Assembly: GCA_026398575.1 (NCBI GenBank)
Contig: JAPLSP010000125.1
Span: 1 to 10,668, forward strand
Source of the DNA: Candidatus Sumerlaeota bacterium
Lineage (GTDB): Bacteria > Sumerlaeota > Sumerlaeia > JADFCT01
DNA: 10,668 bases
Direction of reading: 5' to 3'
Shown here: positions 4,266 through 10,320 of the stretch, in pieces
How the letters are laid out: every line of letters begins with the position of its first letter
Numbering within the stretch: the stretch's first letter is position 1
Notes under the pieces: generated by a model
Seen by the model: the letters and a program-made list of their open reading frames with translations, nothing else
Databases searched by the model: none
What the model was told of the DNA's origin: nothing
Translations under genes and position numbers: made by a program

Positions 4266-4284
4266 AAGCAGCTCCTCTTTGTGA

Positions 4285-4340
4285 GTTCACAGTTCACGGT
4301 TCACAGTTCACGGTTCACGGTTCGCGGTTCACAGTCCAAG
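4285..4340. repeat. GTTCACN heptamer array, eight units
   Basis: Eight consecutive 7-bp units fill the leader between the winged-helix gene and the epimerase Shine-Dalgarno site: GTTCACA, GTTCACG, GTTCACA, GTTCACG, GTTCACG, GTTCGCG, GTTCACA and a decayed GTCCAAG. Position 7 alternates between A and G. On the transcript strand this is a run of YGTGAAC. Short heptad arrays like this occur between genes in several bacterial groups; no function can be read from it. Confidence 0.9.
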
Positions 4341-4369
4341 GTTTGCTTCTCGCCGTTTTAGATTCATGA

Positions 4370-5056
4370 TCAGACGATCTCCTTGTATTCGATTCCTGCA
4401 AGGGCTGGATCGCCGCCGGGCGGCTGGAGGCGTGTGTAGATAAGCGCGTCGAAATCGCGACGGCGCTGTGCGATGGCTTCAAGCGGCTGGATTGGATTTC
4501 CAAAAAACGCCTCGCCGACGCCGGCGTCATCGAAGATTCCGGCGAAGCTTGCCGGGAACTCCTGCAGGCTCAGATAAGCGATTTCGGCCAGATCGCTGCG
4601 GCCCAGAAAAGCAATGCGCCGGCGGCCTTCGTTTTCGACAATCCTGGAAAACAGCCGCCGGCAACGGACGCGCGCTTCGCCATAAAACAGCGCCGAATAG
4701 CGGATGTATTCATACGTCAGGCGTGTCTTCTCGCTCATGCCCATCGGGGTCAGGTAGTAAAGCCAGCGTCGTCCGGGGGCTTGCTTGACCTTGATCCATC
4801 CCTTGCGGGCCAGGCGTTTGAGATAGGAATTGGCCAGTCCCAGCGCAATGCGCATTTCGCCGGCCACGCCGCGTTGAGTGATTTGCGAGGAGCGCTCGAT
4901 GATTTCGAGCAGTTCCAAATCGGGGCTTTTGGCAGTGACCGCCTCGTTACGGGAGGCGCCCGGCGCCGAGGCGGCAAGGGATAACGGCTGTTCGTTGCGC
5001 GTCAGGCCGGCGCCTGAAACGCTGGGATTGGGAGTGCGCGCGGAAATATTTTTCAC
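4370..5056 (-). CDS. Winged-helix (MarR-like) regulator with C-terminal Rossmann-like domain, EPS-associated type
   Basis: A winged helix-turn-helix domain spans about residues 46-106 (numbered from the GTG start): SQITQRGVAGEM, then ALGLANSYLKRLARKGWIKV and a wing ending in YYLTPMG. A helical segment TRLTYEYIRYS follows, then a Rossmann-like domain from about 147: RRIAFLGRSDLAEIAYLSLQ, FAGIFDD, and FDALIYT. This two-domain layout resembles regulators I recall beside exopolysaccharide genes; the C-terminal domain could sense a nucleotide or sugar ligand. The start is uncertain. The frame is open to a TTG at 5146 and an ATG at 5134, but both lie inside a long inverted-repeat element and neither has a Shine-Dalgarno site. 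I chose GTG 5056, just outside the element and behind a promoter-like region; it too lacks a ribosome-binding site. The stop lies 104 nt before the epimerase gene, with the heptamer array between them. It may control the cluster and itself. Confidence 0.8.
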   Translation of the reverse strand: MKNISARTPNPSVSGAGLTRNEQPLSLAASAPGASRNEAVTAKSPDLELLEIIERSSQITQRGVAGEMRIALGLANSYLKRLARKGWIKVKQAPGRRWLYYLTPMGMSEKTRLTYEYIRYSALFYGEARVRCRRLFSRIVENEGRRRIAFLGRSDLAEIAYLSLQEFPASFAGIFDDAGVGEAFFGNPIQPLEAIAQRRRDFDALIYTRLQPPGGDPALAGIEYKEIV

Positions 5057-5062
5057 GTTTTT

Positions 5063-5091
5063 ATGTTCATGAAATGAACGCGGGGAGTCAA
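5063..5091 (-). promoter_or_regulatory. Promoter-like region with palindrome, possible operator of the winged-helix gene
   Basis: On the minus strand a TTGACT (5086-5091) is followed after 17 bases by a poor -10 match GAACAT (5063-5068). Between and over them lies the inverted repeat GTTCAT-GAA-ATGAAC (5065-5079, plus-strand reading), perfect in its six-base arms. An inverted repeat overlapping a core promoter just before a winged-helix gene is the usual picture of autoregulation. The weak -10 keeps confidence low. Confidence 0.35.
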
Positions 5092-5101
5092 CCGGGATTT
5101 T

Positions 5102-5203
5102 AGAGCGTGTGCGAAAAATGAGTGTTTCCCGCATAAAAACGCCCAAGAACCGGCGCTTTTATGCGGGAAACACCTCAGATAAATGCCTTTTCGCACACGC
5201 TCT
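5102..5203. repeat. Nested inverted-repeat element A (double-stem palindrome)
   Basis: Outer arms of 16 bp (5102-5117 and 5188-5203) pair perfectly. Inside them an inner stem of 22 positions (5122-5143 with 5152-5173) pairs with a single A-C mismatch and closes on the 8-nt loop CAAGAACC. The two stems are joined by four bases on the left and by a 14-base strand beginning CTCAGA on the right. The next element, immediately to the right, has the same plan and the same core but different stem sequences. It is not a plain terminator, because no T-run follows on either strand. It may be a REP/MITE-like mobile palindrome or a structured RNA. Confidence 0.85.
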
Positions 5204-5310
5204 TGGGAGTCTGTCGGAGAACCGTGTATCTCCCCCATGAAAACGCCCAAAAACCGGCGCTTTTCATGGGGGAGATACCTCAGACAACCAAGTTCTCCGA
5301 CAGACTCCTA
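5204..5310. repeat. Nested inverted-repeat element B, diverged tandem copy of A
   Basis: Outer arms of 17 bp (5206-5222 and 5292-5308) pair perfectly and can extend by a G-T and a T-A pair to 5204 and 5310. The inner stem (5226-5247 with 5256-5278) pairs except for one extra base and closes on the loop CAAAAACC. The right-hand junction again begins CTCAGA. The shared core CGCCCAARAACCGGCG and the junction match element A, whereas the stems differ at ten paired positions that are all compensated. It abuts element A with no spacer to speak of. Confidence 0.85.
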
Positions 5311-5475
5311 GTCCTTCTCGCGACGGATATGCAGGCGCTCGAGTTCGCGCGCGTGGCGGGCCAGCCGCGGTTCGTCTGCGGGCGCCAGGGAAAGGAAGCG
5401 CGCGCCATAGCGATGGCGGAATCTGGCCATGGGCGGATTTTCGCGCGTCCGCAGGCGTCGAGAATGCCGGCAATT
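5308..5475 (-). other. Short coding-like remnant ending at element B
   Basis: This GC-rich stretch has strong G/C bias at third codon positions on the minus strand, unlike the AT-rich DNA beyond it. One frame reads MARFRHRYGARFLSLAP... and ends ...RLHIRREKD with a TAG at 5308-5310, exactly where element B begins. A second frame, slightly upstream, reads QSPKEIAGILDACGR, which also looks like protein, so the piece may be a frameshifted end of a gene. No start with a ribosome-binding site is visible and I do not recognise the family. It may be a decayed gene tail or a small hypothetical gene. Confidence 0.25.
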
Positions 5476-5559
5476 TCTTTCGGCGATTGAACGGTTTGAA
5501 AATTCTCGGAAATAGGATATTCCCCGCTGGAAATAGGCTAATAGCATACGCAGATGTTT

Positions 5560-5694
5560 ATTAGCGTTCATTAGCGGTTATCAGCGGTTTCTTGTTGTTG
5601 ACGAAGTTGCCAGGGATGTTACTGAGTTTATTTGTGTTCATAGAAATCCGCTTTCCGTTCAAGCAACCGCTAATGGCCGCTAATCAACGCTAAT
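5560..5694. repeat. Inverted repeat with 35-bp arms made of 10-bp units
   Basis: The left arm (5560-5594) contains three direct units ATTAGCGTTC, ATTAGCGGTT and ATCAGCGGTT. The right arm (5660-5694) contains AACCGCTAAT, GGCCGCTAAT and CAACGCTAAT. The arms are inverted copies of each other with five mismatches over 35 bases, separated by 65 bases. A 10-bp period would put the units on one face of the helix. Function unknown. Confidence 0.8.
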
Positions 5695-5852
5695 TTGCTT
5701 TTTCGTTTTGGAATACGGATGGGGCGGATCGGGCGAATCATCACGGATTTTCAGAAGCAAGCTCAGGAGACATGATCATGCCATCCCAATCTCTGGCGCC
5801 GCATCGCGGAATATCTTTTCATGCGAAGCATGCAAAAATTCCTAGAATCTTA

Positions 5853-5901: not shown

Positions 5902-5940
5902 ATTCAGCGTGTGATAATGGCCTGTTCATCTTTTGAACAC

Positions 5941-6045
5941 TTGGAAATTCGAGATTGGAAATTCGAGATTGAGATTGGAAATTGGAAATTGAGCACTTGG
6001 AAATTGGATATTGGATATTGGATATTGATTATTGGATATTGATCA
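5941..6045. repeat. TTGGAWA heptamer array, about 15 units
   Basis: The stretch splits into 15 units: TTGGAAA and TTGGATA dominate, with variants TTCGAGA, TTGATTA, TTGATCA, one 6-base and one 8-base unit. TTGGAAA units lie mostly on the left and TTGGATA units on the right, as expected from local duplication. It ends three bases before the stop codon of the kinase gene, so any transcript of that gene runs directly into it. An open plus-strand frame here encodes a repetitive, W/K/I-rich peptide and is a product of the repeat. Confidence 0.92.
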
Positions 6046-6048
6046 CCG

Positions 6049-10320
<4,272 letters not shown>

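Follow-up and report, generated by a model that had tools for sequence, protein, structure and literature searches.

Two palindromic elements, here termed A and B, lie side by side in the DNA of a Candidatus Sumerlaeota bacterium, and the arms of their stems differ between the two elements in a coordinated manner. This arrangement raises the question of what keeps the arms matched. An earlier note on this DNA had left two kinds of answer: either the folded form, as RNA or single-stranded DNA, is under selection, or the arms are kept alike by conversion or by transposition of a palindromic element. We therefore examined the elements within the window, which is the whole stretch of DNA analysed and comprises the entire 10,668-nt contig, and we compared them with insertion sequences (ISs) and with other genomes of the phylum.

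Layout of the two elements and their paired changes

Each element consists of a hairpin nested within a longer palindrome (Table 1). The plan proposed for both in the earlier note, comprising outer and inner arms, a loop and a right junction that begins with CTCAGA, is borne out by the coordinates and by the pairing. A and B are separated by 2 nt and align over their full lengths, with identical nucleotides in 73 of 103 columns. The inner stem of B includes 18 fully paired bp (5226-5243 with 5261-5278) and a CGCC/GGCG extension beyond the bulged C, and A- and T-tracts stand beside the GC core (AAAACGCC...GGCGCTTTT). Neither A (102 nt) nor B (103 nt) carries a transposase gene, and both are well under 600 nt. 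The flanking nucleotides are TTTA and TTGG for A and TTGG and CTAG for B, with no target duplication; CTAG occurs outside B on the right side only, and is found neither at the left of B nor at either flank of A. No empty site, meaning an insertion-free counterpart, was found for A or B.

Table 1. Positions of elements A and B, their parts and the flanking genes in the window
Feature	Positions	Strand	Description
Element A	5102-5203	.	nested double hairpin, 102 nt
A outer left arm, AGAGCGTGTGCGAAAA	5102-5117	+	16 bp, 100% paired with 5188-5203
A inner left arm	5122-5143	+	22 positions, 95% paired; left spacer before it 4 nt
A loop, CAAGAACC	5144-5151	+	8 nt
A inner right arm	5152-5173	-	single A/C mismatch
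A right spacer	5174-5187	+	14 nt, starts CTCAGA
A outer right arm	5188-5203	-	perfect inverted copy of left arm
Element B	5206-5308	.	nested double hairpin, 103 nt
B outer left arm, GGAGTCTGTCGGAGAAC	5206-5222	+	17 bp, 100% paired; IS1182-type terminal inverted repeat
B inner left arm	5226-5247	+	22 positions; left spacer before it 3 nt
B loop, CAAAAACC	5248-5255	+	8 nt
B inner right arm	5256-5278	-	one C bulged, at 5260
B right spacer	5279-5291	+	13 nt, starts CTCAGA
B outer right arm	5292-5308	-	perfect inverted copy of left arm
CTAG just outside B right end (...GACTC)	5308-5311	.	same as at IS1182 ends
Winged-helix (MarR-like) regulator gene	4370-5056	-	neighbouring gene; predicted start (228-aa form) about 45 nt from A
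Protein kinase with TPR repeats	6049-10320	-	other flanking gene

In nine of the 38 pairs compared, both nucleotides differ between A and B yet remain complementary; six of these pairs lie in the outer stem and three in the inner stem. None of the 38 pairs has changed on one side only, and no G-U pair is present. One further pair, a G-C in B, is aligned to a gap in A. Each of the 75 cells counted is a Watson-Crick pair. Thus, the ten compensated positions reported earlier become nine two-sided changes and one indel: the six outer changes stand, whereas the inner changes number three, the supposed fourth being the indel. B has a 17th outer pair (C-G) whose counterparts in A do not pair. As had been noted, the loop and the CTCAGA junction are nearly unchanged, with one difference between the elements; the seven other unpaired differences fall in the spacers.

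None of 500 shuffles reached nine two-sided changes. For each of the four folds (two elements, two strands), stability lies far outside that of shuffled sequences, with z values of -10.9 to -13.9 and no equally good fold in 200 shuffles. Furthermore, when the window was simulated 200 times with a first-order Markov model, a perfect inverted repeat of 16 bp within 110 nt never arose, and one of 12 bp arose in 28 of the 200 runs. Drawn from two sequences, this comparison demonstrates that the arms change together and does not itself demonstrate the cause of the change.

A and B are located between co-directional minus-strand genes, one for the kinase and one for the winged-helix regulator. The nearest named relatives of the regulator come from Candidatus Sumerlaeota/Sumerlaeia (53 and 56% identity), so that by this one gene the host probably belongs to that phylum. 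No relatives of the regulator were found in viral_contigs, and four other proteins of the window gave no match to locus L001 at 1e-10. An open reading frame across A (5053-5250, minus strand) has neither a Pfam match nor a relative, and one across B (5161-5490, plus strand) has no relative. On the minus strand, an 87-aa open frame (5308-5571), also with no Pfam match, takes its stop codon from the CTAG at the right end of B and could be the tail of a gene severed by insertion.

Several other repeats are present in the window. Tandem heptamers of AGTTCAC/GGTTCAC (7.4 copies, 4284-4343) lie just upstream of the start of an NAD-dependent epimerase gene, and a degenerate tandem array with units TTGGAAATTGAGATTGGAAA and ATTGGATATTGATT (5933-6043) lies between A/B and the kinase gene. 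Repeats of the ATTAGCGG type occur in both orientations about 100 nt apart, at 5558-5589 and about 5670-5695. An open frame at the end of the contig (10608-10668) translates to ITRYGFTLIELLIVIA, which we take to be a type IV pilin-like N-terminus.

Resemblance of the outer arms to IS1182 ends

The outer arms of B are of the same type as the terminal inverted repeats of IS1182-family elements, and CTAG stands outside the right arm. This assignment was made by comparison with plasmid IS1182 elements that were picked by the similarity of their transposases to one from genome G009 (G denotes a genome and L a locus), and not by their ends. Seven loci were fetched from among the 15 matches listed of 3404 matching plasmid records. 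In all seven, inverted ends that both start with CTAGGAG, that is, CTAG followed by GAG, enclose a transposase region; examples are CTAGGAGCCCGTCCGAGTAA (ISMno38), CTAGGAGCGTGTCCCGGTAAC (Roseomonas) and CTAGGAGCGTGTCTCAGTAAC (Streptomyces). An IS1182 transposase is annotated in the records of four of these elements; the corresponding region of the other three has no annotated gene. Bradyrhizobium contributes three of the seven, all closely related.

Two ISs found via their ends also encode IS1182 transposases, one in G009 (L210/L179) and the other on an IMG/VR contig (L277), with NCBIfam NF033551 scores of 377.6 and 379.1 bits against a cut-off of 270. Both carry CTAG at both ends, and their ends differ from those of B at one to three of 15 letters. 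The element in L277 is complete and CTAG-flanked (960-2598); a few kb away, at 6333-7298, this contig also carries a homologue (52% identity) of the NAD-dependent epimerase of the window. On another IMG/VR contig, a 141-nt stretch with CTAG on both flanks has the 17-nt arm of B exactly at one end and a version two letters off at the opposite end.

We aligned 15 letters of the ends of 12 elements, namely A, B, five ISs and five mini-elements. The ends of A and B differ at positions 4, 5, 9, 10 and 13, and all five of these positions vary among the five ISs as well. GAG (positions 1-3) and A15 are invariant, T8 varies in one of the 12 elements, and positions 6, 7, 11, 12 and 14 vary in some. The two ends of one element differ by 1.75 mismatches on average, compared with 4.64 between elements (0 of 20,000 permutations; A and B included), a contrast that is not independent proof because the mini-elements were preselected for carrying such ends. 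The covariation of the outer stems is thus the general behaviour of IS1182 ends, doubled because each element has two of them.

The end pattern of B is in excess over its reversed control in the 40 phylum genomes, which are 40 genomes of the phylum of G001 (Candidatus Sumerlaeota), with 50 matches versus 24; by genome, the counts are 5 versus 0 in G005, 11 versus 0 in G006 and 20 versus 1 in G007. The count for CTAG was 10 of 15, a figure biased by search patterns that themselves contained TAG or CTAG.

Terminal inverted repeats like those of IS1182-family ISs are therefore found in B, with CTAG at the right end, and the likeness of A is weaker. The end of A, GAGCGTGTGCGAAAA, differs by one letter from one end of a G001 mini-element and by five from the opposite end, and it lies one or two letters off the ends of mini-elements in G038. 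It also has GAGCGTGT in common with the IS1182 ends of L281 and L283. This type of end was found on mini-elements only, and none was found next to a transposase. Across the 40 genomes, the A pattern (at most three mismatches) occurs no more often than its reversed control (104 versus 103). It exceeds the control in G001, G006, G009 and G038; the matches in G006 are mostly to another end type. Our assignment of A to the IS1182 type relies mainly on its full-length homology with B.

Related mini-elements in the phylum

Mini-elements that combine IS1182-type outer arms with an inner hairpin exist in other genomes of the phylum, specifically in G001, G005, G006 and G038. Their spacers are unequal in the G001, G005 and G006 elements, as in A and B, and equal in the G038 element L171. 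Among 159 end-motif matches in the fetched loci (repeats counted; arms kept at no more than 4 of 16 mismatches), we counted 14 distinct inverted pairs spaced as in a mini-element; a single G006 family supplies seven of them as its copies. In 11 of the 14, the interior has a fold with z <= -2.0 (simple shuffles), and the element at L151 has no inner hairpin (z +0.6). Arm-like strings for which no partner was found occur at L150, L276 and L278, the last at the edge of its stretch. At L092 in G006, an element with degenerate ends is followed directly by another mini-element, as A is by B.

A covariance model built from A and B matched 10 of 33 hand-picked sources end to end (E up to 0.01). The matches represent eight distinct places in G038, G006, G005 and G001; the best scored 32.3 bits with an E value of 4.2e-5 over 74,481 bases, or about 0.002 scaled to one genome. 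The matched elements share their plan and their ends with A and B, but not their inner sequence. GTAG-type elements of G006 that were among the 33 sources, such as L119, L153, L161, L164 and L199, were not matched.

Inner-arm repeats resembling GTAG REPs gave 17 and 16 matches in G005 and G006 and none in the control; of five genomes searched, these two alone contain them. The repeats also stand alone and in tandem arrays, and we read the pairs in these genomes as REP-like sequences that sit inside IS1182-type ends. One array (G005:C109:3739-3811; L184, L186 and L206) consists of TGTAGTTCACACTTTAGTGTGCCGTT units at 26-nt spacing, arranged head to tail and not as inverted pairs.

One related group is a 92-nt nested-hairpin family in G006 with ends AGAGCCTATCCGAAAAC (L122, L165, L166, L167, L168, L169 and L187), of which six copies were aligned; L169 is a shortened seventh, and TTA precedes 8 of 10 ends. 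In the six copies, mean column identity is 96%; none of 36 pairs shows a two-sided change, and at 16 pairs at least one copy has a variant or broken pair. Because the six copies are close to each other, this is a weak test of compensation.

The earlier note had looked to further copies as a check on the covariation. These were sought with the covariance model, by sequence searches and among relatives; none of the A/B family was found, and the related six-copy family is uncompensated. Exact copies of the core number zero in viral_contigs and in genome_contigs, and with up to three mismatches the core gave 8 matches in the 40 phylum genomes compared with 14 in the reversed control. The covariance model gave no match over the same genomes at E up to 1, a weak null since the model matched some of these genomes' elements when they were given to it directly. 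Plasmid and phage nucleotide searches gave no match at 1e-5; plasmid matches at E up to 10 (6 and 44 records) were set aside as chance-like, the best having E 3 and none covering 80%. The paired-end pattern was absent from viral_contigs and from 50 genomes reached via other matches (50 of 79 other loci). A looser version matched 3 of the 40 phylum genomes at a shorter gap and 5 at a longer one; on our reading, elements account for a single place in G005 and a single place in G006, and the rest look like chance. Two copies are thus seen in 10.7 kb, with no third copy found in the contig, genome, plasmid or phage searches.

Origin of the matched arms

These comparisons suggest that A and B are most likely a neighbouring pair of non-autonomous mini-elements (MITEs) belonging to the IS1182 family. 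Each element would have been mobilised by an IS1182 transposase supplied from elsewhere, with cleavage at the two outer arms. Because one transposase must fit both ends, a drift or switch in its specificity would change both ends together, which may account for the six paired changes in the outer stem. That one element should land beside another would be natural, since IS1182 relatives are reported to target stem-loops. Of the possibilities raised earlier, transposition of a palindromic element is thus favoured by the resemblance of the outer arms to IS1182-type transposon ends.

End-matching explains six of the nine paired changes, and the three in the inner stem need another cause. We favour, with less confidence, template switching during replication, which would copy one arm onto the other; according to PMC8794818, this process can generate hairpin stems and restore their pairing, with compensatory changes that span several bases among the reported outcomes. 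Selection may perhaps have been added if the hairpin body brings the two ends together, which is possible given that IS1182 relatives act on DNA secondary structure. The six-copy G006 family, with no compensated pair among 36, speaks weakly against efficient correction or strong selection. We consider it doubtful that the inner hairpin itself functions in transposition. In such a scheme it would fold in single-stranded or extruded DNA, draw the IS1182-type ends close to each other and be read at the loop and CTCAGA, such that inner stem pairing would be selected in each round of transposition. If true, it would amount to a hairpin-dependent mode of DDE transposase that acts on the donor and not on the target alone.

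Nested palindromes can also be viewed as REP dimers or as TIRYT-type terminal repeats of a REP/RAYT-type system, in which a hairpin-recognising Y1 (HUH) transposase would move the element as single-stranded DNA and pairing would be selected directly. REP dimers within outer palindromes and palindromic terminal inverted repeats of tyrosine transposases have both been described (PMC3733652), Y1_Tnp genes are present in 28 of the 40 phylum genomes, and the inner hairpins of several IS1182-ended elements in G005 and G006 have arms that read as GTAG-REP-like. However, the inner arms of A and B begin with GTGT or GTAT, are not self-complementary REPs and have no GTAG tag, and the ends and right flank of B match IS1182. 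When the neighbourhoods of Y1 genes in related genomes were scanned for the outer-arm motifs (50 stretches, about 43 places of 110 matches), end motifs appeared once, unpaired and within a long open frame. We therefore regard this origin as unlikely.

Less probable still is a functional RNA or bidirectional transcription terminator, with stems selected as RNA in the 5' leader of the regulator. The very stable folds, the A- and T-tracts that adjoin the GC core and the position just upstream of the winged-helix regulator gene would suit it. Yet it is disfavoured, contrary to one option of the earlier note, by the lack of any G-U pair or one-sided change in 38 pairs, by the absence of an Rfam match in the window at gathering score (4227 families) and by terminator-like sites that are no more frequent than in shuffles (1 versus a mean of 1.5). 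In addition, the outer arm of B is found elsewhere as the end of CTAG-flanked elements. It is just as improbable that no selection acts on the stems at all, and that the palindromes are kept perfect entirely by template switching of the kind considered above for the inner stem. Such copying would give Watson-Crick pairs only, as seen, but it leaves the IS1182-like look of the outer arms unexplained, and the varying or broken pairs of the six-copy G006 family indicate that correction is inefficient there.

The interpretation of A and B as IS1182-family MITEs has partial precedents. In PMC3852290, IS1182-derived MITEs of 160 and 169 bp are described for ISMac2 of Methanosarcina acetivorans, direct repeats are listed as DR 4 and DR 0 for IS1182 MITEs, and MITEs resemble their partner IS in the borders only. 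Like these, A and B are short, have no transposase gene and carry ends of the IS1182-family type; unlike them, they are shorter (about 100 nt), nearly their whole body is a second, inner palindrome, they show no target duplication and they are known from one contig. IS1272, of the IS1182 family, is reported to target or replace stem-loops (PMC5678879, PMC4923244) and to make no target duplication (PMC5678879), and TnSha1 inserts in hairpin stems, also with no target duplication (PMC4923244). The missing target duplication at A and B is thus not decisive, given a published IS1182 MITE with DR 0 and the absence of duplication for IS1272. A and B share with IS1272 and TnSha1 the IS1182 family, the lack of target duplication and the involvement of palindromes, but the hairpin is the replaced or cut target in those systems and the body of the element here.

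REP dimers inside longer palindromes, such as A. variabilis GTAG-15 and H. neapolitanus CGTC-1 (PMC3733652), resemble A and B as palindromes within palindromes; they differ in that the inner arms of A and B are not REPs and the outer arms look like transposon ends. IS1182-derived MITEs (PMC3852290) and, for REPs, palindromes within palindromes (PMC3733652) are therefore already published. Among the titles and abstract openings surveyed, which scarcely cover subscription journals, we met no hairpin-bodied IS1182 MITE, and our literature search on Sumerlaeota insertion sequences brought up nothing beyond a paper on Caldarchaeales.

A transposon needs matching ends, and stem covariation between two palindromic elements is for that reason no sure sign of a functional RNA. 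Our findings indicate that hairpin-bodied mini-elements with IS1182-type ends occur in a little-studied phylum. Furthermore, A and B offer a concrete test of whether the donor hairpin matters in IS1182 transposition.
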